From NCBI RefSeq assembly GCF_006483455.1, contig NZ_PPPU01000008.1, positions 1 through 64,000 on the forward strand: 64,000 nucleotides of DNA, given 5' to 3'. The notes under the pieces are model-generated. The model was given only the letters and a program-made list of their open reading frames with translations. It searched no databases and had not been told where the DNA came from. Below are positions 5,296 through 63,670 of this stretch, piece after piece. Source of the stretch: Methylomonas koyamae. GTDB lineage: Bacteria > Pseudomonadota > Gammaproteobacteria > Methylococcales > Methylomonadaceae. Both the position numbers and the translations under genes were made by a program. Each line of letters begins with the position of its first letter. Position 1 is the stretch's first letter.

Positions 5296-5317
5296 CCAGG
5301 CAGAATCCAAAGCCTGG
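5296..5317. other. Stem-loop downstream of dnaE
   Basis: CCAGGC pairs with GCCTGG around a 10-nt loop. There is no T-run on either side, so it is at best a weak or factor-assisted terminator for the dnaE transcript. The rest of the 119-base gap probably holds the promoter of the protease gene, but I see no convincing match. Confidence 0.25.
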
Positions 5318-5348
5318 GCAACGGTTAGCGGTGCGAAATCAACACTGC

Positions 5349-8837
<3,489 letters not shown>

Positions 8838-39806: not shown

Positions 39807-40961
39807 TCAAACCGGGGAATGGGCGGCGATGGTATCGATAATCCGTTCCGACGCCAGTCCGTCGCCGTAAACATCGGCGCTATCCGCCAGCGGCCAACGG
39901 CCTTCCAAGGCGTCTATCGTAGAAGCGGTTATTTTATCGGGATTGGTTCCGGCCAAGCGAATCAGACCGGTGTCGAGGCCCTCGGTCCGCTCGGTCTCGT
40001 CTCGCAAAACCACGACGCGTTTACCCAGACTCGGCGCCTCTTCCTGCACGCCGCCGGAATCGGTCAAAATCAGTTCGGCGTCCGCCATCAGGCTGACGAA
40101 CGGCAAATATTCCAAAGGCTCGATCAATTGAACGTTGGCGATACCGCTTCCCAGCAGCCTGTTTACCGTTTCCCTGACCCGTGGGTTCGGGTGCACCGGG
40201 TAAATAAAATCGTAACCGGGAAAATGGCCGGCAAGCTGCAATATCGCCGAGCAGATCGCCTCCAGGCCGGCGCCGAAACTCTCCCGCCGGTGGCAGGTGA
40301 CCAGTACGTAAGGCCGGCGCTCAGACAAGCTCACGGCTTTCAAACCGGCCGCGTTCAATGATTTCGCCGCCCTGTCCTGCAACATCGCGTCGTCCGTCAA
40401 GCGCTTGACCAGGCCCTTCAAAGCGTCGATGCCGGTATTTCCGGTCACCAACATTCTGTCCGGCGGAATCCCTTCGGCCAGCAGGTTTTCCGCGGCGGAC
40501 CGGGTCGGCGGGAAATGCAGCGTCGCCAATTCGGATACCAACCGTCGATTCATCTCCTCCGGCCACGGCGCATAGATATTGCCGGTTCGTAAGCCGGCTT
40601 CGACATGGGCTACCGGTACCTTCCGGTAAAAAGCCGCGAGTGCCGCGGCAAAACTGGTCGTCGTATCGCCCTGCACCACGACCCAATCCGGCCGGCAGCG
40701 GTCCAGACAATCCTGCATCCGCGTCAGGATATCGACGGTGATACCGGTCAGGGTTTGTTCGGCACGCATGATGTCCAAATCGAAATCGGCATGCAAGCCG
40801 AACAACTCCAACACCTGATCCGACATCTGCCGATGCTGGCCGGTGTTGCAGACCAGAAAATCGAATTGGCTCCGGTTTTTGCCGGCCAAAACCAAAGGCG
40901 ATAGCTTGATCGCCTCCGGCCGGGTTCCCAAAACCACCAAAACCGTTTTTCCCGCTGCCAT
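39807..40961 (-). CDS. wecB: UDP-N-acetylglucosamine 2-epimerase (non-hydrolysing)
   Basis: The enzyme interconverts UDP-GlcNAc and UDP-ManNAc. The 384-residue protein starts AAGKTVLVVLGTRPEAIKLS, with HVEAGLRTGN near residue 112 and DSGGVQEEAPSLGKRVV near 295, all family signatures. No wecC (UDP-ManNAc dehydrogenase) is seen in the window, so ManNAc itself may be used. The ATG at 40961 overlaps the upstream stop as TAATG; the TTG 12 bases before is less likely. Confidence 0.93.
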   Translation of the reverse strand: MAAGKTVLVVLGTRPEAIKLSPLVLAGKNRSQFDFLVCNTGQHRQMSDQVLELFGLHADFDLDIMRAEQTLTGITVDILTRMQDCLDRCRPDWVVVQGDTTTSFAAALAAFYRKVPVAHVEAGLRTGNIYAPWPEEMNRRLVSELATLHFPPTRSAAENLLAEGIPPDRMLVTGNTGIDALKGLVKRLTDDAMLQDRAAKSLNAAGLKAVSLSERRPYVLVTCHRRESFGAGLEAICSAILQLAGHFPGYDFIYPVHPNPRVRETVNRLLGSGIANVQLIEPLEYLPFVSLMADAELILTDSGGVQEEAPSLGKRVVVLRDETERTEGLDTGLIRLAGTNPDKITASTIDALEGRWPLADSADVYGDGLASERIIDTIAAHSPV

Positions 40962-42046
40962 TACCGTGTCCAAACCCTGGAGAGCCGCCCCAGAAACCGT
41001 AGCTCATGGGTTTTACAAAACCGTACCGCCGGCAACTCGACCAATATGTAGCTCAGATAAGCCACCCAGGTCGACAGCACTGCCGCGCCCACAATAGCTA
41101 TCAGATTGCCGGCGAAGGTCTGCTGGCGGCCGATCCAATCGAGCAACGAGTATCCGACCAGCGTGTGGTACAAGTAATTGCTATAGGAGACCTTGCCGAA
41201 AAACGCCAGCAAAGCCATCGAGAATCCGAATTGCAACAGTCCGGCCATCGCCGCAGCGCCGCCGAGAATATAGGCCATCGACCAAAGCGGATAGATGCCG
41301 TCGAACAAGGCAACGTTAAGTCCGGCCAACAAGGCGATCAAAGCCAACCTTAACAGGCTTCCCCCTGCCCAATCCGATTTCTCCGCCAAAAACACCTGAA
41401 TACCGACAAAGAAAACCGGAAAATACGTCAACAACTGGCTGGCCTGGCCCCTAAGTAAAAACATCGCAGCATTAGCCAGAGTAAACAATACCGGTACCGC
41501 CAAAACGAAACGATTCTTTAAGAAATGAGAATACAAAGCGATAAACAGGTAAAACTTCACTTCGATCAACAGGGTCCAATATACGTTGCTGACATTGGGT
41601 AACCTGAACAGGTCGGACAGCATCGTAAAATTCGCCAGGTAGGTCGCATTGGAGTGACTTGCCAAACCGAAACCCAGTTGGCCGGCAACGAAAAACACCA
41701 GCAGGTTCAACCAATACGCCGGAAAAATTTTGAAAAACCTCCGGCATAGAAAGGGGCCGATATTGCAGCTCTGTAAACTCTTGAATATCAAGTATCCGCT
41801 GAGCAAAAAAAACACAATCACGCCGCCCCTGCCCATCGTGGCAAACGATGCAGCTAAATCTCCGAAGACCAAGCGCTGCGGCAGAAAATGGCCGCAAATC
41901 ACCATCAAAATGGCAATGCCGCGAAAAAAATCCAGAGTTGCGATACGTTCGCCGCGTTGCGCCACGGCAGCCGGACCGCCGGCAAAACCGGCATTGGCGA
42001 CAACAGCGTGGGCAATCGGCACAGAAAGACCAGGAAAACGGAGCAT
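40961..42046 (-). CDS. Membrane acyltransferase (acyltransferase 3 family)
   Basis: The 361-residue integral membrane protein begins its core with RIATLDFFRGIAILMVICGHF, the family start with the catalytic-type Arg and His, and shows about ten hydrophobic segments (examples: FFLLSGYLIFKSL, FYLFIALYSHFL, MALLAFFGKVSYSNYLYH). It should transfer an acetyl or other acyl group to a sugar hydroxyl from the membrane. The gene is visibly less GC-rich than its neighbours, hinting at separate acquisition. The ATG at 42046 is preferred to a TTG 6 bases upstream. Confidence 0.88.
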   Translation of the reverse strand: MLRFPGLSVPIAHAVVANAGFAGGPAAVAQRGERIATLDFFRGIAILMVICGHFLPQRLVFGDLAASFATMGRGGVIVFFLLSGYLIFKSLQSCNIGPFLCRRFFKIFPAYWLNLLVFFVAGQLGFGLASHSNATYLANFTMLSDLFRLPNVSNVYWTLLIEVKFYLFIALYSHFLKNRFVLAVPVLFTLANAAMFLLRGQASQLLTYFPVFFVGIQVFLAEKSDWAGGSLLRLALIALLAGLNVALFDGIYPLWSMAYILGGAAAMAGLLQFGFSMALLAFFGKVSYSNYLYHTLVGYSLLDWIGRQQTFAGNLIAIVGAAVLSTWVAYLSYILVELPAVRFCKTHELRFLGRLSRVWTR

Positions 42047-42061
42047 CGGCAAGGCCGGCGC

Positions 42062-42847
42062 TTAGCGTAGGCGTTTCAAAAAGCCGTCAGGGGCCACCGA
42101 AATCTGCAGTTTATGGTCCAGGCTTTTGTCGATCTCAAATTCGGGATGCGACTGCAAATATTGTCTGACCGCGGTTTTCGGATTGTCGCCCGGCCCCCAG
42201 GGACGGTCCGGGAACAGATCGGCCGGCATGTCTTCGACCATGGTATCGAACACCACGCAGTAACTGCCTACCGTCGTCAGCGGCGCGTAGGCTTCCAGCT
42301 CGGCCAGCACGTGCTCGTGGGTGTGGTTGGAATCGAGGCACACCAGAATCCGCTGCGAACCCTCCGCGCGCGCTTTGACCTCGGCCACGGTCTCCGGGGC
42401 GATGCTGGAGCCCTGGATCATTTCGATCCGCGAGCTCATCGGGTGGGCTTCGATCGCCGCCCGGTTATGGGCGCGAATATCGATATCGATGCCGATCACT
42501 TTACGGCGGAAATCGCGCAGATTCAGCGTCTGCTCGCCGGCTTCGATCGCTTCGGCCATGTCCAGCAACGCCAGCATCGATGCGCTGAAAATCAAGGATC
42601 CGCCGTGAGCGATACCGGTCTCGACGATCAGGTCTGGCTTCACCGACCAAATCAGCTCCTGCATCGCCACGATGTCCTGCGGGTATTGAATGATCGGCCG
42701 CCCCATCCAATCGAACTGGTAAGAATATTTGCCGGCTTGAGCGAAATTCATCCAGGCGCGTGTCAGCTGTTCGCCCGCATTGTTTGCCGCGAAAGCCTGG
42801 CGGATAGACTCTCTTTCATGCGCAAACTGTGTTACCGGATCCATCAT
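42062..42847 (-). CDS. CmcI-type (cephalosporin hydroxylase family) methyltransferase
   Basis: The protein has 261 residues. The pattern LIVETGIAHGGSLIFSASML is the SAM site, GIDIDIRAHN an acidic ribose site, and CLDSNHTHEHVL a metal-binding DSxH-type motif of the CmcI/RhlnO family. Although named after cephalosporin hydroxylase, members near rhamnan clusters O-methylate sugars, which fits here. The start ATG-ATG overlaps the stop of the reductase gene (ATGA), tying it to the CDP-sugar branch. Confidence 0.8.
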   Translation of the reverse strand: MMDPVTQFAHERESIRQAFAANNAGEQLTRAWMNFAQAGKYSYQFDWMGRPIIQYPQDIVAMQELIWSVKPDLIVETGIAHGGSLIFSASMLALLDMAEAIEAGEQTLNLRDFRRKVIGIDIDIRAHNRAAIEAHPMSSRIEMIQGSSIAPETVAEVKARAEGSQRILVCLDSNHTHEHVLAELEAYAPLTTVGSYCVVFDTMVEDMPADLFPDRPWGPGDNPKTAVRQYLQSHPEFEIDKSLDHKLQISVAPDGFLKRLR

Positions 42848-43752
42848 TCACTCCCCTTCAATTCGTTAATTTTAATTCGGTAATCGGCAAGGCCGTCGCG
42901 GATCGATATCCGTGCGGCCCAACCGGTTGCAGCCAGCTTGTCCGCGCAGCCGACCAGCAGCAGCGGATCGTATTCGGCGACCGGCACGGCGCCGAATTCG
43001 ACAGCCGGCACGGCTTCGAACAAACCGGCGCAGATCGCCACGATGTCCGCCAGCCGCATCGGTTCGCCCGAGGCGATGTTAAACGCGCCGGTCGCCGACG
43101 TGTTTGCCGCCAAATGGGCGAAAGCCGATGCGACATCGCTGGCGTGCAGAAAATCGCGAAACTGCCGGCCGTGGCTGCACTTTAAAACTTCGCCCCGGGC
43201 CATGGCCGAGAGCACCGACGGCACGAATCGCGCCGTCGGTTCGCCCGGCCCGTACGGCGTAAAAATCCGCCCCCACACCCAGTCAATGCCGTTGTCGCGG
43301 CAAAAACCTTCGGTAAATTGCCGGGTGGCATCCTTACACTTGCCGTACAGCGTTACCGGCGCAGTTGGCGTTTTGCCTTCGACGCAATAGCCGTAATTCC
43401 AGTCGTACTCGGCGCAGGTCCCGGCAATCACCGCCCGCTTACCGCCAAATTCTTTAAATGCCGCCAGCAAATTCGCCGTGGCATCGCACCAGGCAAAATT
43501 TTCGGCTGCGGTCCAGAACCGGCCGTGCTCGACGAACCAGGCCAAATGAATCAAGCACTCGGCTTCGGCTTGAGCCATCGCCTGCCTGGCTTGGCCGACA
43601 TCCAACAAATCGGCCGGTAACCAGGTCAGGCCGGGCTGCGGCGCATGATCGGAACGCCTGGAAACGGCAGCCACCTGATGGCCCTGCGCCAGCAGGATCG
43701 ACAACAGATAACGGCCAATGAAGCCGTCGGCCCCAGTAACCGCGATTCGCAT
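42844..43752 (-). CDS. NAD-dependent epimerase/reductase (extended SDR)
   Basis: The 302-residue enzyme begins MRIAVTGADGFIGRYLLS, with the GxxGxxG nucleotide site. The catalytic pair is likely Tyr and Lys in TLYGKCKDATRQF. It follows the C-methyltransferase gene (TAATG overlap), so it probably reduces the C4 keto group of the CDP-sugar made by RfbF, RfbG, the epimerase and the C-methyltransferase. It could alternatively be a C4 epimerase. The longer upstream frame runs inside the neighbour and is not real. Confidence 0.83.
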   Translation of the reverse strand: MRIAVTGADGFIGRYLLSILLAQGHQVAAVSRRSDHAPQPGLTWLPADLLDVGQARQAMAQAEAECLIHLAWFVEHGRFWTAAENFAWCDATANLLAAFKEFGGKRAVIAGTCAEYDWNYGYCVEGKTPTAPVTLYGKCKDATRQFTEGFCRDNGIDWVWGRIFTPYGPGEPTARFVPSVLSAMARGEVLKCSHGRQFRDFLHASDVASAFAHLAANTSATGAFNIASGEPMRLADIVAICAGLFEAVPAVEFGAVPVAEYDPLLLVGCADKLAATGWAARISIRDGLADYRIKINELKGSE

Positions 43753-44978
43753 TAGAGGACCGTTAACTCCGGCACGGCAATGGCGAAACGGCCGCCCCAA
43801 TCCCGCAGGTAATCGAGTTGCGCAACAACTTCGCGCTGCAAATTCCACGGCAATATCAGCACATAATCGGGCTTGTCGCGTTGCAAATGCTGCTCATCCA
43901 CAATCGGTATCCGACTGCCGGGCAGCCATTTGCCTTTCTTGGCCGGATTGCGGTCGACGACATAGGCAATCAGATCAGGCCGCACGCCGGCGTAATTGAG
44001 CAAGGTGTTGCCTTTGGCCGCTGCGCCGTAAGCCGCGACTTTCTTGCCGTTGCGGGCGGCGTCCAGCAAAAAGCTTAGCAGATCGTTCTTCAACGCATCG
44101 GCCCGCTTCTGGAATCCGGCGTAAAAAGCCACCCCGGCCATGCCGGCCTGAACCTCGCGCCGCAACAACTCGGCCACGGCTGGCTCGACCGGCTGTGCGC
44201 CGTCGGCGGTGCGCTGAACAAACACCCGCAAGCTGCCGCCATGGGTCGGTAATTCCTCGACATCGAATACCGTCAAACCGTTTTCCGCGAATATGCGCTG
44301 CACGGCGGTCAGCGACAGGTAGGAAAAGTGCTCGTGGTAAATCGTATCGAACTGGTTGCTTTCGATCAGATTCAGCAAGTGCGGGAACTCGAAGGTCGCA
44401 ACCCCGACCGGCTTCAGCAACACCGCGAAGCCGCGGACGAAATCGTTAATGTCGGGGACATGCGCCAGCACATTGTTCGCGGCCATCAAATCGGCCCGGA
44501 CGCCTTCCGCAACCAGCCGCTCGGCCAATTGCGCGCCGAAAAACGCCTCTACTATTCGCAAGCCCTTATCGCGGGCAGCTTGCGCAGTGCTCGCAGTCGG
44601 CTCGATACCCAGGGCGCCAATACCGCGTGCCTGCACATATTGCAACAAATAACCATCGTTCGAGGCCACTTCCACCACCAACGACCCTGCATCCAGACCG
44701 AAACGCCGGACCATCGCCGCGACGTAATTTTCGGCGTGCTGCAGCCAGGTCGACGAGAACGAGCTGAAATAGGCGTAATCGGCCGAAAAAAATTCGGCGC
44801 AATGGGCATAGTCCTCGGTCTGTACCAACCAGCACTGTTGACAGACCAGTACCCGCAACGGGTACCAGCGTTCCGGCGCATGCAAGGTTTCGGCGGTCAG
44901 ATAGGAATTCGAAGGCGGCGCACTGCCCAGATCGATCAGCGGCAGAGAGAGTTCGGAACCGCAATGACGGCATTTCAT
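43752..44978 (-). CDS. Sugar C-methyltransferase (TylC3/NovU family)
   Basis: A 408-residue enzyme with the three-part plan of nucleotide-sugar C-methyltransferases: an N-terminal zinc site (Cys3 and Cys6 in KCRHCG, then VCQQCW near residue 48), a SAM domain with VVEVASNDGYLLQYV, and a C-terminal domain with AAYGAAAKGNTLLNY. The motif DTIYHEHFSYLSL holds the family's Tyr-His-Glu-His active-site group. Such enzymes methylate C3 (less often C5) of a 4-keto-6-deoxy sugar nucleotide. With rfbF and rfbG upstream, the substrate should be a CDP-4-keto-6-deoxyhexose. Confidence 0.88.
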   Translation of the reverse strand: MKCRHCGSELSLPLIDLGSAPPSNSYLTAETLHAPERWYPLRVLVCQQCWLVQTEDYAHCAEFFSADYAYFSSFSSTWLQHAENYVAAMVRRFGLDAGSLVVEVASNDGYLLQYVQARGIGALGIEPTASTAQAARDKGLRIVEAFFGAQLAERLVAEGVRADLMAANNVLAHVPDINDFVRGFAVLLKPVGVATFEFPHLLNLIESNQFDTIYHEHFSYLSLTAVQRIFAENGLTVFDVEELPTHGGSLRVFVQRTADGAQPVEPAVAELLRREVQAGMAGVAFYAGFQKRADALKNDLLSFLLDAARNGKKVAAYGAAAKGNTLLNYAGVRPDLIAYVVDRNPAKKGKWLPGSRIPIVDEQHLQRDKPDYVLILPWNLQREVVAQLDYLRDWGGRFAIAVPELTVL

Positions 44979-45547
44979 AGCTCGATACCTTGAAAATCGG
45001 ATGGTAGGTTTGAGTGTTGCCGGTCGCGCTCGGACATTTCGGTAATCGCCAACGGCCAGTCGATAGCCACTCTCGGCTCCAACGCATGCAACGCGCCTTC
45101 CGCACTCGGCGCATAGGCGGTGCTATGCAAATACAACAATTCGCAGTCGTCCTCCAAAGTCTGGAAACCGTGGGCGAAACCTTGCGGAATCAGCAGCGAC
45201 TCGCGGTTATTAGCTGACAACTCCACGCCGTACCAGTGTAGAAAGGTCGGCGAACCGCTGCGCAAATCGACTGCGACATCGAATATCCGCCCGCCCAGGC
45301 AACTGACCAGTTTGGTCTCGGCGTGGGGTGGATACTGGAAATGCAGGCCCCTGACCGTACCGCGGCGGCGAGTCAGCGTCTGGTTGATCTGAACGATCGG
45401 TTCGGAAAAGCCGGCAGCGTTTAATTCGTCCGCGCAGAAAAACCGGGAAAAATAACCTCGGCTATCTTCCGAACAGCGCCGCCGAATCAATTTCAATCCG
45501 GCCAAAGGCGTCGCGACGACTTCAAATTGCGCCAAGACCGTCTCCAT
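44975..45547 (-). CDS. RmlC-like sugar-nucleotide epimerase of the CDP branch
   Basis: The 190-residue cupin enzyme has VRGLHFQYPP with the catalytic His, ETKLVSC with the Lys, and MSERDRQ with the Asp of the His-Asp dyad. It differs from the true dTDP-rhamnose RfbC at 60055-60603, and in place (between rfbG and the C-methyltransferase) it should epimerise C3 and/or C5 of CDP-4-keto-6-deoxyglucose. The ATG at 45547 lies inside the end of rfbG (26-base overlap); the frame extending to 45649 is not supported. Confidence 0.83.
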   Translation of the reverse strand: METVLAQFEVVATPLAGLKLIRRRCSEDSRGYFSRFFCADELNAAGFSEPIVQINQTLTRRRGTVRGLHFQYPPHAETKLVSCLGGRIFDVAVDLRSGSPTFLHWYGVELSANNRESLLIPQGFAHGFQTLEDDCELLYLHSTAYAPSAEGALHALEPRVAIDWPLAITEMSERDRQHSNLPSDFQGIEL

Positions 45548-46598
45548 GCGGCGCTTGCCGGTAGTCCCGAATTTGTCCGGCGCTGAACTCGGCCATGTCC
45601 TCGCCGTTGCGCCAAGCTCGGTGCCAGGCGGCAGTTCTTTCGATGGCAATCTGCAAACGCCAGCGCGGTTGCCAAGCCAAACGCTGCCGGGCTTTGCTGC
45701 TGTCCAGGCTCAGAAAATGCGCTTCGTGCAGATCGCTGGGTTCTGAGCGCCAATTCAGAGTCGGGAAGCGCTTCGCCAATTCGCCCAGCACCCAGGCCAC
45801 AGGCTTGGCGTCCTGTTCGTGCGGTCCGAAATTCCAGCCCTCGGCGAACGCCTCGCCATGCTCGAATAAATGCTCGGCCAACGCCAAATAACCGGATAGC
45901 GGTTCCAACACATGTTGCCAGGGCCGCGTCGCATTCGGTGCCCGAATCACCAATTCTTCGCCGCGGTCCAATGCACGCAGCGCGTCCGGAAGCAAACGGT
46001 CTTCCGCCCAATCGCCGCCGCCGATCACGTTGCCGGCACGGGCCGACGCCAAATGCACACCAGCCTGCGCCAGAAACGACGCCCGGTAAGCCGCCGTCAC
46101 CAATTCCGCGCAGCCTTTGCTGGCCGAATAAGGATCGCGGCCGCCCATGGCTTCGTTCTCGCGGTAGGGCCACAGCCACTCGCGATTTTCGTAACACTTG
46201 TCGGTGGTCACGTTGACAACGGCGCGGACCGTGCTTTGCCGACGCACCGCCTCCATTAAATTTACCGTTCCCAGCACGTTGACCTGAAAAGTCTCGACCG
46301 GCTCGCGATAGGAATAGCGTACCAAGGGTTGGGCCGCCAGATGCAAGACGATATCGGGCCGGGCCTGGTCCAGCGCGGTCGCCAAAGCAGGTAAATCGCG
46401 AATATCCCCCAATACATGCGCGGCGAGCAGCGATTCCACGCCGGCCTCGACAAACAGCGCCGGTGCAGTGGCCGGAGGCAAGGCATAGCCATAAACCGTC
46501 GCCCCCAACGAATGCAACAGCATCGTCAACCAGGAACCTTTGAAACCGGTATGGCCGGTGACGAACACCCGCTTGCCTTGCCAGAATTCAGGATTCAT
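45522..46598 (-). CDS. rfbG: CDP-glucose 4,6-dehydratase
   Basis: RfbG turns CDP-glucose into CDP-4-keto-6-deoxyglucose. The 358-residue SDR protein begins [19 protein letters not shown], with the nucleotide-binding GxxGxxG, and has [11 protein letters not shown] and the catalytic YSASKGCAE. It overlaps the cytidylyltransferase gene by 11 bases, the usual rfbF-rfbG pairing. No ddhC-type C3 deoxygenase is near, so abequose-type 3,6-dideoxy sugars are not expected. Confidence 0.94.
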
Positions 46599-47367
46599 GC
46601 CAAACCTTCCACGGTGCGGCCCCGGATTGCCACAACTCCTCGAGCTGATTCTTGTCGCGTAGCGTATCCATCGGTTGCCAAAAGCCGGCGTGTTCGAACG
46701 CCATCAGTTGGCTTTGCTGTGCCAAACGGGTCAATGGCTCGGCCTCCCAGTGGGTTGCATCGCCGTCGATGTATTCCACGCACTCGGGAGATAACACGAA
46801 GAAACCGCCGTTGATCCAGCCGCCGTCGCCTTTCGGTTTTTCCATGAAGCCTTTGACCCGGGTTCCGGCCAAATCCAAGGCGCCGTAGCGCCCGGCAGGC
46901 TGGACCGCGGTGACGGTGGCCAACTTGCCATGGTCTTGATGAAAACGAATCGCAGCGGAAATATCGACATCGGCCACGCCGTCGCCGTAGGTGAAACAAA
47001 ATGCCGTTTCGTTTTGCAGATAGGCGGCGACCCGTTTCAGGCGGCCGCCGGTCATAGTGTCGTCGCCGGTGTCGACCAGTGTCACCCGCCAAGGTTCGGC
47101 GTAGCGGTGGTGGACTTCCATTTGGTTTTTTTGCATGTCGAAGGTGACGTCCGACATATGCAGAAAATAATTGGCAAAATACTCCTTGATGACATATCCC
47201 TTGTAACCGCAGCACACGATAAACTCGTTAATCCCATGCGCGGAGTATATCTTCATGATGTGCCACAGAATCGGCTTGCCGCCGATTTCGATCATCGGTT
47301 TGGGGCGGGAAACGGTTTCTTCGCTGATGCGGGTACCGAGCCCGCCGGCCAGAATGACTGCTTTCAT
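46588..47367 (-). CDS. rfbF: Glucose-1-phosphate cytidylyltransferase
   Basis: RfbF makes CDP-glucose from CTP and glucose 1-phosphate and opens the CDP-sugar branch. The 259-residue protein starts [19 protein letters not shown] with [13 protein letters not shown], and has [10 protein letters not shown] and [10 protein letters not shown], all of the RfbF type. It is preceded by a 153-base gap without a gene (47368-47520), where a promoter for this branch would be placed; TTGAAA near 47440 on the minus strand is the only hint and lacks a good -10. Confidence 0.95.
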
Positions 47368-53368: not shown

Positions 53369-54895
53369 TCAATTCCTGATTTTCTTTTCGTAAGCGTACG
53401 ATTTGCTTCGAAAACCGGCTTTGGAAAAGGCGGATACGGAAGGCAAATTATTCGCCATTATAATGGCCTCGACCGTTTGCACCCCAGGCCAATTATTCTC
53501 GACCCAAATACAGCCGGCTTCGATAAGGTGCACGCCTATGCCTTTGCCGTAATGACCAGGCACAAGGTATACGGATATCACCGAGCGTTCGCTGTCGCGA
53601 TCGAAACGCAACACGCCCACCGCCTCACCGTCGATCTCGCCGACCAGCAACTGGCGATCGGGGTCTGATAGAACTTGGCTAAACCAACTTCGATGCCCCT
53701 CGAAGTCGATAGCCTGCCCATCCTGAGAATATTTTCGGGTCGATTCGGCATTGCGCCATTGATAAATCGGCTCGCAATCGCCAATTTCCGCCGGCCGTAA
53801 TGCTAACCGGGCCTGAAGCAAATGCGAAACCACCCGATTCGTCCCGAGACCATCGGCCACCTCCAAGCTACGTTGCGCAATACTCTCTATTAAGCCGACT
53901 GCGTTAACCGCAACCGATAATGCCGAAGCGACTAACTCTGTCGTTACCCGCTCGGATTGCCCCAGATACAGGATCGCACCCTGCCTGGCCATGGCTTCGC
54001 ATCCCGGTTGCTGGTTGGCGGCCACGCTGACAACGATAGTCGGCAAGCCCAGGCAACTGCGCTCCCACATCGCTCCGCCACCGGCTCCGACCGACAGATC
54101 GGCATTTGCCATTAACTCCGCCATATTACTGACTTGGCGATATAGGGTACACGCGGGAAATTGCTCGGATAATTCCAGCAATTGCGGGTAATGCGGATTC
54201 GCGCTGCCGATTACGACGTCGACGGCCAATTCGTCGCAAGCCAGACTCTTTAACGCCAACAACACTTTCGCGGTTTCGTTGCTGGGGTCGCCGCCGCCGA
54301 AAAAAACCAGTACGCGCTCGACCACGCCGGACCTGATCCGCGCCGTCGCCCTTAGCGCTTTAAATTCGGGGCGCAGTAAGGCATATTTGGGCCCCATCAG
54401 CGTGACTGCAGTGGACGGCAGCAAACCGTCGTAGCGAGTTTGCCCGGTTAGATCCAGCAGATTTTGGTCCAACAACAAGTCGCAATCGTGCAGCCGATCC
54501 GCCAAATCGTCGATCACCATGATGCGTCCGACCATCGGCCGCAATATTGCCTCCCATTCCGCGTCGATCGCGTAATGGTCGACCATCAGCCAATCGGGAT
54601 CGCCAAACTGCCGTAAAGCCGCAGCGGTTTGTTGGGCATCCTCGGTTTGCGTTGTTCCCAACCACGCGGCATGGGCAAGCCGGGTATCGTGAGCGGACGC
54701 CGGTTCCGGCAACCGCAATAACAGATGGCCGGAAGCCTCGATCAGCGAAAACAGATTGCCCGGATGTTCGCGGCTGATGAATGCCACCTCGGCACCGCGC
54801 TCGCGCAATGCATCGGCCAGAGTCAGGCAACGCATCACATGGCCGCTCCCCATCTGCACCGAGGCGTCGGCGCGAATCGCGACTTTTAGGCTCAT
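53369..54895 (-). CDS. pseG: PseG-PseH fusion: UDP-sugar hydrolase plus GNAT acetyltransferase
   Basis: The 508-residue protein joins two steps of the pseudaminic acid route. Residues 1 to about 340 match PseG, which removes UDP: VAIRADASVQMGSGHVMRC at the start, DDLADRLHDCDLLLDQN, and SVGAGGGAMWERSCLGLPT. Residues about 350-508 are a GNAT domain like PseH (N4-acetylation): LRPAEIGDCEPIYQWRNAE, VISVYLVPGHYGKGIGVHLI, NLPSVSAFSKAGFR. In the hydrolase-synthase order, PseH acts before PseG. The ATG at 54895 overlaps the aminotransferase stop (ATGA). Confidence 0.9.
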   Translation of the reverse strand: MSLKVAIRADASVQMGSGHVMRCLTLADALRERGAEVAFISREHPGNLFSLIEASGHLLLRLPEPASAHDTRLAHAAWLGTTQTEDAQQTAAALRQFGDPDWLMVDHYAIDAEWEAILRPMVGRIMVIDDLADRLHDCDLLLDQNLLDLTGQTRYDGLLPSTAVTLMGPKYALLRPEFKALRATARIRSGVVERVLVFFGGGDPSNETAKVLLALKSLACDELAVDVVIGSANPHYPQLLELSEQFPACTLYRQVSNMAELMANADLSVGAGGGAMWERSCLGLPTIVVSVAANQQPGCEAMARQGAILYLGQSERVTTELVASALSVAVNAVGLIESIAQRSLEVADGLGTNRVVSHLLQARLALRPAEIGDCEPIYQWRNAESTRKYSQDGQAIDFEGHRSWFSQVLSDPDRQLLVGEIDGEAVGVLRFDRDSERSVISVYLVPGHYGKGIGVHLIEAGCIWVENNWPGVQTVEAIIMANNLPSVSAFSKAGFRSKSYAYEKKIRN

Positions 54896-56181
54896 CTGAC
54901 CTTGAACAGCGGTTCTAGCGCCTGACAACGCAGCATTTTTTCCAAGGAGCGCTCCTTGACCGCCGCTACCAGCAGCGGAAGCACCGCATCGTAAGCGGCA
55001 AACAATTGATCCAGATCGCTGTCGTGATGGCTATAGCTCATATTGTGAGTGCCGAAGGCCAGAATGCCGCGTTCCAACATCTCTTGCATGAACAGGGTTT
55101 TCAATTGCCAGGACGTGTAAGGCTCGGCATCCTTGATCAACAAAAAGCTCCAAGCCGGATGGCCGGAGACGCTGAGGAAATGCTCAGCGCCATGTGCGGC
55201 TATCGCTGCCTGCAGGCGCTGGATGATTTTTTCGCCTTGCAGCCGCATCGTCGCCACGACCGGTTCGCGCTGCAATTTCTGCATCGTTGCCAATGCGGCA
55301 GCCAAAGACAAGGTTTCGCCGCCGAAGGTAAACGAGAAGAACACTTCTTCCATCAATTGCATCAAGTCCGCCCGCCCGGCGACGGCGGATACCGGATAAC
55401 CGTTGGCCAAACCTTTGCCGAAGGTTGCCAAATCCGGCGTCACCCCGAAATATTCCTGGGCGCCGCCGTTGGCATAGCGAAAGCCGGTGATGGTTTCGTC
55501 GAAAACCAACACCGCGCCGTGTTTGTGGGTTAATTCTTTAACATTTTCCAAAAACCCGTCCTGCGGCTCGACCACATTCATCGGTTCCAGAATCACCGCA
55601 GCGATCCGGTCCGGCCACTGCTTGAACACACTGTCCAGCGAGGTAATGTCGTTATACGTGAAGGTATGCGTCAAATCGCGGGTGGCTTGTGGCACGCCCC
55701 GGTTGCGCAAGGTCGAACCGATATACCAATCCTGCCAGCCATGGTAGCCGCAAACCGCGACATGGTCGCGGCCGGTGCGCGCGCGCGCCAAACGAATGGC
55801 ACCGGCCGTGGCATCGGAACCGTTTTTGCCGAATCTGACTTGTTCCGCGCAAGGCACCAATTCGCAGATTTTTTCCGCGACCTGCATTTCGATCGGATGG
55901 GACAAGCTGAATATCACGCCGTCTTCCAACTGCGCCTTGACGGCTTCGGTGACGTCAGGATCGTTGTAACCCAGCGTAACCGCGGCCAAGCTGTTGATGA
56001 AATCGACGTACTCGTTGCCGTCGACGTCCCATACGTGGCTGCCGCGCCCGCGTTGGATGAAATACGGCGACACGCCGTGCGGGTATTGGGTTTTGCTTTT
56101 GCTAAAAGTTTGGGAACCGAGCGGGATGGTTTTTAACGCACGTTCCAATAGCGTTTCGGAGTTACGGTAACGTTCGGACAT
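54892..56181 (-). CDS. Class III (glutamate-1-semialdehyde type) aminotransferase
   Basis: The 429-residue PLP enzyme resembles glutamate-1-semialdehyde aminomutase: FGKNGSDATAGAIRLARA, FDETITGFRYANGG, and the PLP Lys in TFGKGLANGYPVSAVAG near residue 260. A housekeeping hemL is not expected in a sugar cluster, so it probably acts on a sugar or on a group attached to it. It is not needed for standard pseudaminic acid, so its presence suggests a modified nonulosonic acid. It is coupled to pseG. Confidence 0.85.
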   Translation of the reverse strand: MSERYRNSETLLERALKTIPLGSQTFSKSKTQYPHGVSPYFIQRGRGSHVWDVDGNEYVDFINSLAAVTLGYNDPDVTEAVKAQLEDGVIFSLSHPIEMQVAEKICELVPCAEQVRFGKNGSDATAGAIRLARARTGRDHVAVCGYHGWQDWYIGSTLRNRGVPQATRDLTHTFTYNDITSLDSVFKQWPDRIAAVILEPMNVVEPQDGFLENVKELTHKHGAVLVFDETITGFRYANGGAQEYFGVTPDLATFGKGLANGYPVSAVAGRADLMQLMEEVFFSFTFGGETLSLAAALATMQKLQREPVVATMRLQGEKIIQRLQAAIAAHGAEHFLSVSGHPAWSFLLIKDAEPYTSWQLKTLFMQEMLERGILAFGTHNMSYSHHDSDLDQLFAAYDAVLPLLVAAVKERSLEKMLRCQALEPLFKVR

Positions 56182-56189
56182 AAGGACGA

Positions 56190-56963
56190 TTAACTCGCTG
56201 GGTTTGACGATTGCTGAGCATCGGCGGCAACAGATTTAAGATAACCTTCATTGCGTTGATGTTGCGTATTCCAATTGGCCAGTTCGGGCCGCTCGGCTAA
56301 TAACTGCAGGATATCCGGCGTCGAAAAATCCGGATGCGCCGGGTACAAAGCGGCGTAAATCTGCGAGACCAATTCAAAATCTCGTGGCTCGTCGACAGTC
56401 CAGCGCAGATGCGACAAGTCTTCGCGATTGAAAAAATGGCCAAGATTGAAGCGTTCCGGCTGCTGGTGAATGAACGGCGTGACGTGTTCGCGTTGCGATG
56501 GCAGCTCGGCCTCGCGCCAAGCCTGTTCCAGGCAGGCAAAGCGGCAGATTTCGACATCCAAGCCGTCCGGGAAGGTCGGCTGTATGGCGTTACTGGCATA
56601 GTCGTAACCGCCGGCCAGATAATATTCGATGACTTGGTCGATCAAACCGGGATCGGCCAACGGGCAATCCGCGGTCAGCCTCACCACGTGATCCGGGTGG
56701 TAACTCGCTGCCGCTTGATAGAAGCGGTCCAGCACGTCTTGCAGATTGCCGCGAAAGCAGTCGACTGCATGTTGCTCGCATAAGCTTGCTATCGCATCGT
56801 CCGCCATCTCGCTGCTGGTAGCGACCAGTAGCCGGTCGATGTGACGGACTTTTTGCAGCCGTTCGATTTGCCTGAGCAACATCGGCTCTCCCAACAACGG
56901 CATCAACACCTTACCGGGCAAGCGGGACGACGACAGCCGAGCCTGTAATATCGCTAATATCAT
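56190..56963 (-). CDS. spsF: SpsF-type cytidylyltransferase (probable CMP-pseudaminic acid synthetase)
   Basis: The 257-residue GT-A-like protein starts MILAILQARLSSSRLPGKVL and has DVLDRFYQAAA and VVRLTADCPLADPGLID, the cytidylyltransferase group named after Bacillus SpsF. It is the only CMP-sugar synthetase candidate in the pseudaminic-acid block and would activate the sugar as the CMP donor, the PseF role. AGGA is 6 bases before the ATG at 56963, which overlaps the upstream stop. The longer frame (to 57107) lies inside the aldo/keto reductase gene and is not real. Confidence 0.83.
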   Translation of the reverse strand: MILAILQARLSSSRLPGKVLMPLLGEPMLLRQIERLQKVRHIDRLLVATSSEMADDAIASLCEQHAVDCFRGNLQDVLDRFYQAAASYHPDHVVRLTADCPLADPGLIDQVIEYYLAGGYDYASNAIQPTFPDGLDVEICRFACLEQAWREAELPSQREHVTPFIHQQPERFNLGHFFNREDLSHLRWTVDEPRDFELVSQIYAALYPAHPDFSTPDILQLLAERPELANWNTQHQRNEGYLKSVAADAQQSSNPAS

Positions 56964-57853
56964 GATTTTCCTGGTTCCAGCCGCCACAAAGCCGGATTGA
57001 CTATCGCTTCTGCGCCGATGGCGAACCCGGCAAACTCGCCGCAATCGAGCTCGACGTTGGCGGCGTCGCAGATATCGCGTAGTTGCTGCGCATTGTTCAC
57101 GCCACAAATGATTTGGTCGATTTCGGTCAAGCCGGAGACGAACCCCACTGCGGCTTGTAGCGGCGTCAATCCGCGGGCGCGAACAAATGCGTGATAGGCT
57201 TCGAGAACATGCCGCACCGGAGCGAAATACGCCGGAATTTCCGACGCATCCATCAGCAACAGGCCCTGCAAAAATACCGAGCGGGCATGCACCTCGACTC
57301 CGGCCGATTTTAGTTTTTGCAAATGGCCGCTAACCAGCAAGCGCTGGTCCAAAACACTGATCGGCAGTTGCACCAAATCGATATCAAACCGCTGCAGAAT
57401 TTGGTCTATCTGCGCCGAGTCGTACACCGAAACCCCGATCTTGGCGACCAAGCCTTGCTGCTTCAAGCCGGTTAACGCCGCCATCAAACGTTCGCCGCCG
57501 GGCACGAACAGATCGTCCGCCCGATGAATCAATAAGCCGTATACCGAATCGCAGTTCAGCTTTGTTAACGACTCGTGGAAGACTTGTTGCAATCGCTCGG
57601 CATCATCGGCATCCAAAACCGGTTTGGCAAATTGCGGGGTTTTGGTCACGATATCGAACCCGGCCGCCGCCGGCAAACAATTGCCCAAGACCTGTTCGCT
57701 ATCGCCGTAAAGGCTGGCCGTATCCAGCACCCGAACCTTCAGCTCACCCGCCGCCGCCAGAATAGCGGCGACTTCGGCAGCTGGCGTTTTGCCGTCTTTA
57801 TTCGAAACGCCGTAATCGACGCCGAATTGTACGGTACCCAAACCGATCTTCAT
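56960..57853 (-). CDS. Aldo/keto reductase
   Basis: The 297-residue TIM-barrel oxidoreductase starts MKIGLGTVQFGVDYGVSN and has VLDTASLYGDSEQVLG with the catalytic Asp and Tyr, plus IVTKTP with the Lys. Family members reduce a keto or aldehyde group with NADPH. It lies between pseC and the cytidylyltransferase gene with 4-base overlaps on both sides, so it probably acts in the same route, possibly with the class III aminotransferase. Confidence 0.87.
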   Translation of the reverse strand: MKIGLGTVQFGVDYGVSNKDGKTPAAEVAAILAAAGELKVRVLDTASLYGDSEQVLGNCLPAAAGFDIVTKTPQFAKPVLDADDAERLQQVFHESLTKLNCDSVYGLLIHRADDLFVPGGERLMAALTGLKQQGLVAKIGVSVYDSAQIDQILQRFDIDLVQLPISVLDQRLLVSGHLQKLKSAGVEVHARSVFLQGLLLMDASEIPAYFAPVRHVLEAYHAFVRARGLTPLQAAVGFVSGLTEIDQIICGVNNAQQLRDICDAANVELDCGEFAGFAIGAEAIVNPALWRLEPGKS

Positions 57854-60054: not shown

Positions 60055-60603
60055 TCAAGCAAACAGTTCAGCCTCGTCCAACGACACGCCGGCTTGGTCT
60101 TTTCCGGAGAGAACCGGTTCGCCGGCATAAGGCCAATTGACTTGCAGACTCTCGTCGTTCCAGGCAATACAGCGCTCGTGCTGCGGCGCATAGTAATTCG
60201 TGGTTTTGTAGAGAAATTCCGCAGTATCGGACAGCGTCACGAAACCGTGGGCGAAGCCTTCCGGTATCCAAATTTGCCGCTTGTTATCGGCCGACAATAT
60301 TTCGCCGACCCATTGGCCGAAAGTTGGCGAGCTTTTGCGAATGTCCACCGCGACGTCGAATACTTCGCCCTGTACAACCCGGACCAGCTTGCCCTGAGCC
60401 ATCGGCGGCATTTGGTAATGCAAGCCGCGTAACACGCCTTTTTGCGATTTCGAGTGGTTATCCTGCACGAAGTTGACGTCGACGCCGGTCAATTCCCTGA
60501 ACAATTTTTCGTTGAAACTTTCGAAAAAAAAGCCGCGCTCGTCGCCGAACACTTTAGGGGTGAATAATATGACATCGGGAATGGAAAGACGGCTGGCTTG
60601 CAT
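60055..60603 (-). CDS. rfbC: dTDP-4-dehydrorhamnose 3,5-epimerase
   Basis: The 182-residue cupin protein has FFFESFNEKLF, VLRGLHYQMPP with the catalytic His, GKLVRVVQGEVFDVAVDIR, and ILSGKDQAG-type LSGKDQAG with the Asp. All conserved residues of true RfbC are present. It closes the rfbBDAC set, and is separated by a 168-base gap from rfbA upstream and by 43 bases from pseB downstream. Confidence 0.95.
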   Translation of the reverse strand: MQASRLSIPDVILFTPKVFGDERGFFFESFNEKLFRELTGVDVNFVQDNHSKSQKGVLRGLHYQMPPMAQGKLVRVVQGEVFDVAVDIRKSSPTFGQWVGEILSADNKRQIWIPEGFAHGFVTLSDTAEFLYKTTNYYAPQHERCIAWNDESLQVNWPYAGEPVLSGKDQAGVSLDEAELFA

Positions 60604-60743
60604 GGCTTACCTAAAATCTAAACGAAAGTGACTGCGGCTGAGCGATAGCAATTTAACGCAAGTCGCAAAACGGCTAGCCTCTATGCCACAGGATAAATGA
60701 ACACCAAATTTATTCGGATTTGATGTCAGTTTTGTGGGCGACC

Positions 60744-60758
60744 AAAAATCGCATGCGA
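60744..60758 (-). terminator. Possible weak terminator after rfbA
   Basis: On the minus strand the palindrome TCGCATGCGA is followed by TTTTT, 14 bases after the rfbA stop codon. The stem could be only 3 bp with a 4-nt loop, so termination would be weak. The remainder of the gap to rfbC holds no clear promoter. Confidence 0.2.
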
Positions 60759-60771
60759 CCAGTTCGGCCAA

Positions 60772-61656
60772 TCAAAATACTTGCTTATTCAACAATGTTA
60801 ACAAATATTGACCGTAACCGTTCTTTGCCAGCGGTTTGGCCAATTTTTCGATCTGCTCGTCGCCGATCCAGCCGCTACGCCAGGCAATCTCCTCCGGGCA
60901 GGAAATTTTCAGACCCTGGCGAGACTCGATGGTCTCGATGAAGTTGCTGGCTTCGATCAGACTGGCGTGGGTACCGGTATCCAGCCAGGCATAACCACGG
61001 CCCATGATCTCAACGCTAAGTTGTTGACGCTCAAGATAGATCCGGTTGACGTCGGTAATTTCCAACTCGCCGCGCGGCGAAGGTTGCAAATTGGCGGCGA
61101 TATCGACCACTTGGTTATCGTAAAAATACAAGCCGGTCACGGCGTAATGGCTCTTCGGCTGGGCCGGCTTTTCCTCCAGCGACAAGGCCCTGCCCTCCGC
61201 GTCGAAGCTGACCACGCCGTAACGCTCAGGGTCCTGTACGTGGTAGGCGAAAACCGTCGCGCCCGAGCTGCGGTCGTTTGCTGTCCGTAATTGCTGGTAC
61301 AAATCGTGGCCGTAGAAAATATTGTCGCCCAACACCAAGGCGCTGGGATCGGCTCCGACAAAATCGCGACCGATGATGAAGGCCTGCGCCAAGCCGTCGG
61401 GGCTGGGTTGTACCGCGTACTGCAAATTCAAGCCCCAATCGCTGCCGTCGCCGAGCAACTGTTGAAACAACGGCGTATCCTGCGGCGTGGAAATAATCAG
61501 AATGTCGCGAATGCCGGCCAGCATCAAGGTGCTGAGCGGGTAATAAATCATCGGCTTGTCGTAAATCGGCAGCAATTGCTTGGAAACCGCTTTGGTGACC
61601 GGGTACAAGCGGGTACCGGAACCGCCTGCGAGAATAATGCCTTTACGTTGACTCAT
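60772..61656 (-). CDS. rfbA: Glucose-1-phosphate thymidylyltransferase
   Basis: RfbA makes dTDP-glucose. The 294-residue product begins [20 protein letters not shown], with [19 protein letters not shown] and [10 protein letters not shown], all standard. GGAAGG lies just before the ATG at 61656, which follows the rfbD stop by 2 bases. The frame upstream of this ATG belongs to the neighbour. Confidence 0.97.
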
Positions 61657-61658
61657 GG

Positions 61659-62555
61659 TTACCTTCCATACAACTCGGACAACATGCGCTCGACCCCTGC
61701 CTGCCATGGCGGCAAGCGCAAATCGAATGCGGCCTGCAATTTCTCGGTATTCAAGCGCGAATTCAACGGCCTTTTAGCCGGTGTCTGATACGCGCTGGTC
61801 GGGATCGCGGTGACCGCCTGCTTCGGCGTATTCAACGCGACGCCGGCCTGGCGGGCGAAATACAGCGCAAAGTGGGCGTATTCGTACCAAGAGGTCTCGC
61901 CGGCCGCCGTCAGATGATAGATCCCGGCGACATCCGGCGTGCGCAATGCGGTGCGAATGGCGTGAGCCGTAACATCGGCCAATAATTCGGCCCCGGTCGG
62001 CGCGCCGATCTGGTCGTCGATCACCGACAACTGCTGCCGCTCCTGCGCCAGCCGCAGCATAGTCTTCGCGAAATTGTTGCCGTGCGCGGCGTAAACCCAA
62101 CTGGTGCGGAAGATCAAATGCCGGCAGCCGCTGGCTTGGATCGCACATTCGCCGGCTAATTTAGTTTGTCCGTAGACATTCAGCGGCCCGGTCGCATCAT
62201 CCTCGCGCCAAGCTTGATTGCCGCCACCGTTGAAAACATAGTCGGTCGAATAATGCAGCAGCCAAGCACCATATTCAGCCGCCGCTTCCGCCATCGCCCG
62301 CGGCGCCGCACAATTGATGGTATTGGCCAGCTCGATTTCGGTTTCGGCCTTATCTACCGCCGTGTAAGCGGCGGCGTTGACGATCACGTCGGGCCGCACG
62401 GCCCGAACCGTGGCCGCGATGCCGTCCGGATTACTCAAGTCGCCGCAGTAGTGCCTATCCTGGCGGTCCAAGGCCAACAGCTCGCCCAACGGCGCCAGAC
62501 TGCGCTGCAGCTCCCAGCCAACCTGGCCGTTCTTGCCGAACAGTAAAATCTTCAC
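61659..62555 (-). CDS. rfbD: dTDP-4-dehydrorhamnose reductase
   Basis: RfbD makes dTDP-L-rhamnose in the last step. The 298-residue SDR protein begins [20 protein letters not shown] and has [20 protein letters not shown] and [11 protein letters not shown] with the catalytic Tyr and Lys. It starts with GTG at 62555, overlapping the rfbB stop (GTGA). Confidence 0.96.
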
Positions 62556-63622
62556 TCGGCCCGCCCGGCGTAGTTTTTATCCAGCCAAGCCTGGTAATCG
62601 CCAGATAATACATTGTTGACCCAGGCCTGGTTATCCAGGTACCACTGCACGGTCTTGCGTATCCCGGTCTCGAAAGTTTCCGCCGGTTTCCAGCCGAGTT
62701 CCCGCTCCAGTTTGGTCGCATTGATCGCATAGCGGCGGTCGTGGCCGGGCCGGTCTTTGACGTAGTTAATTTGCTCGGCATACGACTTGCCGTCCGCACG
62801 CGGCTGCAGTTCGTCGAGTATCGCGCACAGCGTATTTACCACATCCAGATTAGCCTTTTCGTTCCAGCCGCCGACGTTGTAGACCTCGCCCAGCTTGCCG
62901 GCAGCCAATACGAGCCGAATCGCGCTGCAATGGTCTTTGACGTACAACCAGTCGCGGATTTGCTGGCCGTCGCCGTAAATCGGCAGCGGCTTGCCGGACA
63001 AGGCGTTTTGGATGCAGAGCGGGATCAACTTTTCCGGGAAATGGTAGGGGCCGTAATTGTTCGAACAATTGGTAGTCAGCACCGGCAAACCGTAAGTATG
63101 GTGGTAAGCGCGAACCAGATGGTCGCTGGCGGCCTTGCTCGCAGAATACGGGCTGTTGGGCTGGTATTGGTTGGTTTCGGCGAACGGCGGATCGGCTTTT
63201 TCGAGCGACCCGTAAACTTCGTCGGTAGAGACATGCAGAAAGCGGAACGCCTGTTGCTCGGCAGGTTGCAGATTGTTCCAATATTCCCTGGCGGCTTCCA
63301 GCAAACGAAAACTGCCGACGATATTGGTCTGGATAAAATCTTCCGGGCCATGTATCGAACGATCGACATGGGACTCGGCGGCGAAATTGACCACGGCGCG
63401 CACTTGGTGCTGCTTCAGCAAGCCCAGCACCAACTCGTAATCGCCGATATCGCCGTGCACGAACACGTGGCGGGCATCGGCTTGCAGCGCGGCCAGATTT
63501 TGCGGGTTGCCGGCATAGGTCAGCTTATCCAGATTGACGACGGTTTCGTCGCTCTGCGCCAGCCAATCCAGAACGAAATTGCTGCCGATAAAGCCGGCGC
63601 CGCCGGTAACTAAAATGCTCAT
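62552..63622 (-). CDS. rfbB: dTDP-glucose 4,6-dehydratase
   Basis: RfbB makes dTDP-4-keto-6-deoxyglucose. The 356-residue protein begins [19 protein letters not shown] and has [11 protein letters not shown] with the catalytic Asp-Glu and [15 protein letters not shown] with Tyr-Lys. The ATG at 63622 is used; a TTG 6 bases upstream is open. It is the first gene of the glycan region as transcribed, with a possible promoter in the 88 bases before it. Confidence 0.97.
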
Positions 63623-63670
63623 ATGCAACCGATATTATTGTTGTGTGTTCCTGGCGGTCTTCATCCCTCT

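Follow-up and report, generated by a model that had tools for sequence, protein, structure and literature searches.

Azotobacter vinelandii makes cytidine diphosphate (CDP)-vinelose, 6-deoxy-3-C-methyl-2-O-methyl-L-talose, from CDP-glucose. A gene block that is predicted to form a sugar nucleotide of this type was analyzed here in Methylomonas koyamae, in a stretch of 64,000 nucleotides (contig NZ_PPPU01000008.1 of assembly GCF_006483455.1, positions 1 to 64,000), which is called the window in the following. The block consists of six minus-strand genes running from 47367 down to 42062. Judged from its sequence, it is likely that this operon makes a CDP-activated, 3-C-methyl-branched, 2-O-methylated 6-deoxyhexose (vinelose-type) for a surface glycan. 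CDP-vinelose shares with the predicted product the CDP carrier, the 6-deoxy position, the 3-C-methyl branch and the 2-O-methyl group, and a gene family is present here for every enzyme needed. Among the papers listed in the literature searches, whose coverage of subscription journals was thin, no gene assignment was found for vinelose or for a CDP-linked C-methyl sugar.

The C3 methylation of the dTDP-mycarose and tetronitrose type (MtmC, TylC3, TcaB9, and KijD1) employs methyltransferases of the same family with the same zinc and catalytic residues. However, it acts on antibiotic sugars carried by deoxythymidine diphosphate (dTDP), whereas the window combines a predicted CDP carrier with a surface-glycan locus. 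The pathways of the CDP-3,6-dideoxyhexoses (ddhA-D) and of yersiniose (YerE) have RfbF and RfbG in common with the block, but they require a C3 deoxygenation by E1 and E3, and the C4 branch of yersiniose is introduced by a thiamine diphosphate (ThDP) enzyme. A yersiniose- or abequose-type product was rejected, as neither the C3 deoxygenation system nor a ThDP enzyme is encoded in the operon.

Campylobacter jejuni HS:41 makes CDP-6-deoxy-L-altrose, and its enzymes are described as proven on CDP sugars in vitro for four of the five types first recognized in the block (PMC12369002). The route to CDP-6-deoxy-L-altrose and CDP-D-fucose likewise comprises a cytidylyltransferase, a CDP-glucose 4,6-dehydratase, a CDP-4-keto-6-deoxyglucose 3,5-epimerase and an NADPH-dependent C4-reductase, but the five enzymes named for it include neither a C- nor an O-methyltransferase and it ends in a pyranose/furanose mutase (PMC12369002). 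The original prediction, which was made from the DNA alone, had been unable to name an established CDP-linked route; such precedent is provided by CDP-vinelose and by the C. jejuni enzymes.

Virenose in the lipopolysaccharide of Coxiella burnetii is also a 3-C-methyl-6-deoxyhexose, for which a TylCIII-like methyltransferase has been proposed, but the proposed carrier is guanosine diphosphate (GDP) or thymidine diphosphate (TDP), the configuration is D-gulo and the pathway is presented largely in silico (PMC3539893, PMC3204966). The comparison of the product with virenose or evalose can be kept as a weaker analogy. A GDP-virenose-type product was rejected for the window, because both the nucleotidyltransferase and the dehydratase encoded in linkage belong to the CDP type.

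The six-gene block and its enzymes

The operon is real and coherent, and the original prediction was right in outline. RfbF, RfbG, an RmlC-like epimerase, a C-methyltransferase and a short-chain dehydrogenase/reductase (SDR) were found at the predicted positions, overlapping on the minus strand and with agreeing family scores. The end of the unit at 42844 had to be revised, since a sixth gene coding for a CmcI-type protein (42062-42847) overlaps the SDR gene. Every neighboring pair of the six overlaps, by 11, 26, 4, 1, and 4 nt from rfbF onward. The best start codons of the epimerase and SDR genes are ATG 45547, not 45649, and ATG 43752, respectively. Thus all six families of the list that we take to be required for CDP-vinelose are encoded in one overlapping unit. 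The single activities, methylation at C3 and O2, the succession of the steps and the stereochemistry described below are inferred. What was observed in the sequences is that the proteins belong to these families and keep the active-site residues, and that the genes stand in this order and are co-inherited with the CDP-glucose genes.

The first gene, rfbF/ddhA (46588..47367), encodes a glucose-1-phosphate cytidylyltransferase, which would form CDP-glucose. It is followed by rfbG/ddhB (45522..46598) for a CDP-glucose 4,6-dehydratase, which would convert this into CDP-4-keto-6-deoxyglucose. Both assignments hold at equivalog level because the scores are far above the cut-offs (TIGR02623, 474.9 bits, cut-off 300.25; TIGR02622, 485 bits, cut-off 278.45), and no other gene of the window's genome exceeds the TIGR02623 cut-off. 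RfbG bears a TDK...YSASK motif, which is of the TDK...YxxxK type given as CDP-glucose dehydratase signature in the review PMC8987622.

The RmlC-type 3,5- (or 5-) epimerase (44975..45547; PF00908, 201.3 bits) exceeds the TIGR01221 cut-off by a narrow margin (158.7 vs. 155.75 bits) and would epimerize C5 (and C3), leading to an L-series 4-ketosugar. Its residues H69, K79, Y139, and D175 are invariant in seven aligned rows; H69, K79, and D175 presumably represent the conserved His/Lys/Asp site of RmlC epimerases. The window's genome contains two PF00908 epimerase genes, one in the CDP block and one in a complete dTDP-rhamnose operon, rmlBDAC. Since the latter copy is placed there, the epimerase of the block is free for the CDP route and presumably dedicated to the CDP sugar.

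The branch would be introduced by a C-methyltransferase of the TylC3/MtmC/TcaB9 family (43752..44978). It has three domains, an N-terminal zinc domain (PF08421), a domain for S-adenosylmethionine (SAM; PF13489, Methyltransf_23) and a C-terminal PF08484 domain. The C4 ketone would aid the removal of the C3 proton, before the methyl group of SAM is added. Y68, H173, Y214, E216, and H217 as well as the cysteines C3, C6, C46, and C49 are invariant in nine aligned rows (the window and eight relatives), and we take them to be the catalytic and zinc residues. The best solved match is PDB 4rv9 (E 2.3e-74), a 'D-mycarose 3-C-methyltransferase', and the other solved relatives with E < 1e-50 are a 'Sugar 3-C-methyl transferase' (1.4e-67) and TcaB9 (5.2e-63), which presumably acts at C3. 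On account of these names, a methyl branch at C3 is favored. The predicted 6-deoxy sugar with a C-methyl branch is sequence-supported, with C3 rather than C5 as the more probable position.

The extended SDR (42844..43752; PF01370, 134.4 bits) is presumed to be a NAD(P)H-dependent C4-ketoreductase; an L-talo or an L-rhamno configuration could result from this step. It contains the motifs TGADGFIG and Y136GKCK, and T6, G7, G10, G13, Y136, and K140 are invariant in 27 aligned rows. Its predicted structure (predicted local distance difference test, pLDDT, 93.4) matches 4-epimerases and a 4-ketoreductase equally among the best 50 of 1000 chains, and the sequence matches fit both activities as well. 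The C4 reduction that had been predicted is plausible, while sequence and fold matches do not distinguish it from epimerase activity.

The last protein (42062..42847) belongs to the CmcI/rhamnosyl O-methyltransferase family (PF04989, RMNT_CmcI, 330.2 bits) and is presumed to methylate O2. It stays below the rhamnosyl O-methyltransferase equivalog NF045824 (91.2 of 400 bits), so that the assignment is one of PF04989 family membership. An RfbH/E1 C3 dehydrase was not found in the operon, a genome-wide RfbH search not being made. Among the scanned proteins of the window, the sole DegT-family member is PseC (582.9 bits; RfbH model 140.6 of 423). This agrees with the earlier expectation that the product retains its C3 oxygen.

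Co-occurrence of the methyltransferase with CDP-glucose genes

The gene order rfbF-rfbG-rmlC-methyltransferase was found in 9/9 relatives with a methyltransferase of more than 50% identity (60 relatives searched). Such a recurrence is not a matter of chance. A larger set of 91 loci, selected for methyltransferase similarity, was composed of these nine, two Azotobacter-like loci and 80 loci from a scan with at least 589 stretches encoding methyltransferase relatives (E ≤ 1e-3); counts were made by tblastn using loci with enough flank. An RmlC gene lies directly upstream of the methyltransferase gene in 88/90 loci, and rfbF, rfbG, and rmlC are all upstream of it in 74/87.

A spread sample was taken by searching PF08484 across the class. 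Forty-eight of 274 genomes matched, including the window's own, and 40 loci were read from 39 of the other 47, the eight unread genomes being mostly low-scoring. Where the methyltransferase shares 41% identity or more with that of the window, RfbF (≥50% identity) is encoded within 6.5 kb in 24/29 loci, compared with 1/11 loci below this value (Fisher p 3.3e-5). Four of the five genomes of the misses hold an RfbF above the family cut-off, among them L134, which was scored as a miss with an adjacent RfbF just under the 50% line. The fifth has a weaker RfbF homologue (225.7 bits) at a distance of about 3.7 kb. Ten of the eleven genomes with distant methyltransferases were searched (G534 was not included), and eight of them lack an RfbF above the cut-off.

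In a methyltransferase tree, 35 of the 36 CDP-linked rows fall into one group of 41 rows (support 99/95), and 1/12 rows outside it is CDP-linked. The tree omits L135 (partial) and L154 (fused) and carries a long-branch warning among the distant rows. The label CDP-linked changes 8 times on it, compared with 14.8 times when shuffled. Gene order, spread-sample linkage and the whole-genome RfbF searches agree and thus point to CDP as carrier; together with the RfbF and RfbG scores, they support the predicted CDP linkage. A dTDP-linked product via the rhamnose operon, about 13-16 kb from rfbF, is possible in principle, but was disfavored because the methyltransferase group tracks RfbF genome by genome.

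Several observations weigh against a tight block. No RfbG homologue of at least 38% was seen in the stretch read for 11/25 spread-sample loci with RfbF (≥49.5%), RmlC was found in 23/29 and CmcI in 10/29 loci (CmcI in 0/11 distant loci), and some loci are ordered rfbF-rfbG-methyltransferase-rmlC. Moreover, the distant row L155 does lie close to rfbF and rfbG, and six rows of the CDP group lack RfbF under the rule used (L134, L029, L121, L139, L123, and L124). The RfbF gene of L029 is on the opposite strand and just too far away, that of L134 is the adjacent one mentioned above, and L121 and L139 are short contigs; beside the methyltransferase of L123 and L124, no clear RfbF was found.

The link to vinelose comes from a genome presumed to be A. 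vinelandii. An alternative nitrogenase subunit was searched in the family of a Pseudomonas genome, and 7/248 genomes were positive. One of them, G122, carries anfG- and vnfG-type genes at places that fit A. vinelandii, its identity being presumptive. It contains the cassette in the same order as the window, with identities of 77% (RfbF), 52% (RfbG), 59% (RmlC), 68% (methyltransferase), and 59% (CmcI), 8 kb from a flagellin gene. The only RfbF above the cut-off in G122 lies in this cassette, so that CDP-glucose-derived sugars of this organism should need it. The cassette differs in its reductase, which belongs to another SDR group, and in an acetyltransferase gene beside it. Among the other six positive genomes, the cassette is also present in G083, where its SDR (41%) is of the window type, and five gave no methyltransferase match. 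The cassette is probably a gene set for vinelose-type sugars. Beside the CmcI gene on the flagellin side, the presumed A. vinelandii also encodes a PhyH-type dioxygenase and a TylF-like protein (L114:6076-6957 and 5303-6076), which suggests a further decoration of the sugar.

Variable modules and rival readings

The gene following the methyltransferase varies between the 91 loci. When the module was named coarsely after the homologue encountered first, within 2.6 kb from the start of the methyltransferase, 49 loci had an SDR from the same broad group as that of the window, 19 a DegT aminotransferase, 10 an SDR of a second kind and 11 another gene, while a contig end was reached in 2. In the presumed A. 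vinelandii, the SDR of the second kind is preceded by a hexapeptide acetyltransferase. The lysine in the SFHGTK...GEGG stretch is present in all 14 cluster 8 aminotransferases that were called immediately downstream of the methyltransferase. For two that were tested, LegC- and PseC-type models outscore the RfbH model, their scores being below the cut-offs, and one of the two is followed by a NeuD-type acyltransferase (190.8 vs. cut-off 160.8), whose cluster occurs in 7 loci. A CmcI-type gene lies within 8 kb of the methyltransferase in 60/73 loci with enough flank, namely in 37/42 with SDR, 13/17 with DegT, 4/6 with SDR9, and 6/8 with other modules. Since it accompanies the cassette whichever C4 module is present, the simplest reading is that its target is a hydroxyl shared by all products, O2.

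A wider reading, which in our judgment is evenly poised, takes the cassette as the missing CDP-vinelose gene set and CDP-3-C-methyl-4-keto-6-deoxyhexose as a hub. Interchangeable C4 modules (two SDR kinds, or an aminotransferase with or without NeuD-type acyltransferase) would convert it into branched CDP sugars, including undescribed 4-amino-3-C-methyl sugars, often 2-O-methylated and often on flagellin.

The cassette is neither rare nor categorically new. The original prediction had called such sugars rare, which does not fit the number of stretches in the scan described above, nor the strong methyltransferase match in 43/298 genomes sampled from the family of G122 (presumed Pseudomonadaceae). 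Methyltransferase and cassette were also seen in loci from Bacteroidetes, Planctomycetota, and others. Methyltransferase relatives are also encoded by a large Sinorhizobium meliloti 1021 replicon (56%) and by a Desulfolutivibrio plasmid of 52 kb (69%). Several Pseudomonas cassettes encode an additional methyltransferase between SDR and CmcI, which is shorter (about 356 aa) and consists of Methyltransf_23 and a weak PF08484 tail (L049:10071-11138, and similarly, for example, in L051, L072, L079, L084, L085, and L115).

Three other readings of single steps have to be weighed. The O-methylation is the step with the most serious rival, in which the CmcI-type protein acts on a residue already in glycosidic linkage or on a different sugar; the operon product would then be a simple 3-C-methyl-6-deoxyhexose. 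The mycobacterial rhamnosyl O-methyltransferase indeed uses a glycolipid as substrate, and the gene is non-adjacent, 3-8 kb off, in many relatives and scarce in the spread sample. However, it overlaps the SDR gene within the operon and is associated with the cassette across the C4 modules, whereas no distant locus has it, and the O-methyl group of CDP-vinelose is already present at the nucleotide level. We therefore regard a different target of CmcI as doubtful, and the 2-O-methylated sugar nucleotide is preferred.

That the SDR is a C4 or C2 epimerase, and that the 4-keto sugar either stays a ketone or is reduced by a different enzyme, would fit its ambiguous matches but is unlikely. A DegT aminotransferase replaces it in the 19 loci counted above, in line with a slot whose role is to use up the C4 ketone, and the SDR lacks the Asp-Glu/Asp-Lys pair which, by the rule given in PMC8987622, follows Ser/Thr in dehydratases. 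A methyl transfer to C5 as in noviose, giving a CDP-5-C-methyl-6-deoxyhexose, is quite improbable, although the same methyltransferase family includes C5 enzymes like NovU, and the block's epimerase has NovW from novobiocin biosynthesis among its relatives of solved structure. The solved methyltransferase relatives with E < 1e-50 carry 3-C-methyltransferase names or correspond to TcaB9, and the cassette of the presumed A. vinelandii points toward a 3-C-methyl sugar, in line with the favored branch at C3.

Surroundings and glycan target

The dTDP-rhamnose operon (60055-63628) comprises rmlC (60055-60603), rmlA, rmlD, and a rmlB-like gene ending at 63628. The window also contains pseudaminic acid genes for PseB, PseC, a cytidylyltransferase fitting PseF, PseG, and PseI, and further a non-hydrolyzing N-acetylglucosamine (GlcNAc) 2-epimerase, glycosyltransferases, a pyruvyltransferase, and an ABC transporter. 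Within the range of the fetched stretches, two genus relatives retain the region from PseI to a capsule-synthesis-like gene, its proteins being 79-100% identical. PseG is apparently fused to a PseH-like GNAT acetyltransferase domain in one frame of 519 aa (53369-54928). The pseudaminic cluster also includes a class III aminotransferase resembling glutamate-1-semialdehyde aminomutase (54892-56181) and an aldo/keto reductase (56960-57853); neither is known to be needed in the usual pseudaminic acid pathway.

Located 9 nt beyond the CmcI-type gene, an acyltransferase-3 family membrane protein is encoded (40961..42052, minus strand; PF01757, 75.3 bits). It has the same position in two relatives (79-89% identity) and may loosely be part of the unit, with O-acylation of the glycan as a possible role.

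Flagellin genes were surveyed in 47 genomes, mostly isolates (10 genomes and those of 37 of the 80 scan loci), counting strong matches (E about 1e-16 or better) but not each of their repeats; weaker ones were excluded, including some at less than 20 kb in G368 and G373. A strong match is present in 42/47 genomes, and in 25/47 the methyltransferase and such a match are at most 18 kb apart, 18 of these 25 being Pseudomonas and not independent. Pseudomonas cassettes often sit between very large glycosyltransferases, which recall fgt1 and fgt2 upstream of fliC in P. syringae by size and place only (PMC3927599). In P. syringae pv. syringae B728a, the glycan on flagellin is described as containing an incompletely identified 160-Da 'methylated deoxyhexose' (PMC3927599), which could be the product of such a cassette.

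For the window's genome, six relatives from the genus and one from the family, several of them many-contig drafts, no strong flagellin match was found within 400 kb on the contig of the methyltransferase. Flagellin as target in the window's genome is unsupported, its flagellin matches being on other contigs (C46, C3, and weakly C8), which is no proof as the window's contig has only 68 kb. Less than 1 kb from one flagellin gene of this genome, a sugar-nucleotidyltransferase-like gene (G000:C46:33991-34614) marks a separate possible flagellin-modification site. Most likely, the six-gene block builds a methyl-branched sugar for the bacterial surface.

In a glycan review (PMC9912281), 3-C-methyl-branched sugars are termed 'quite uncommon', which contrasts with the wide spread of the presumed branch-making methyltransferase in the sampled genomes. 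The best claim from the sequence comparisons is a candidate gene set for CDP sugars of the vinelose type, surrounded by a putative modular hub. If this is true, genes would be assigned to an old orphan sugar nucleotide, an enzymatic route to branched CDP sugars would become available, and the cassettes would represent a testable source of flagellin glycan diversity.

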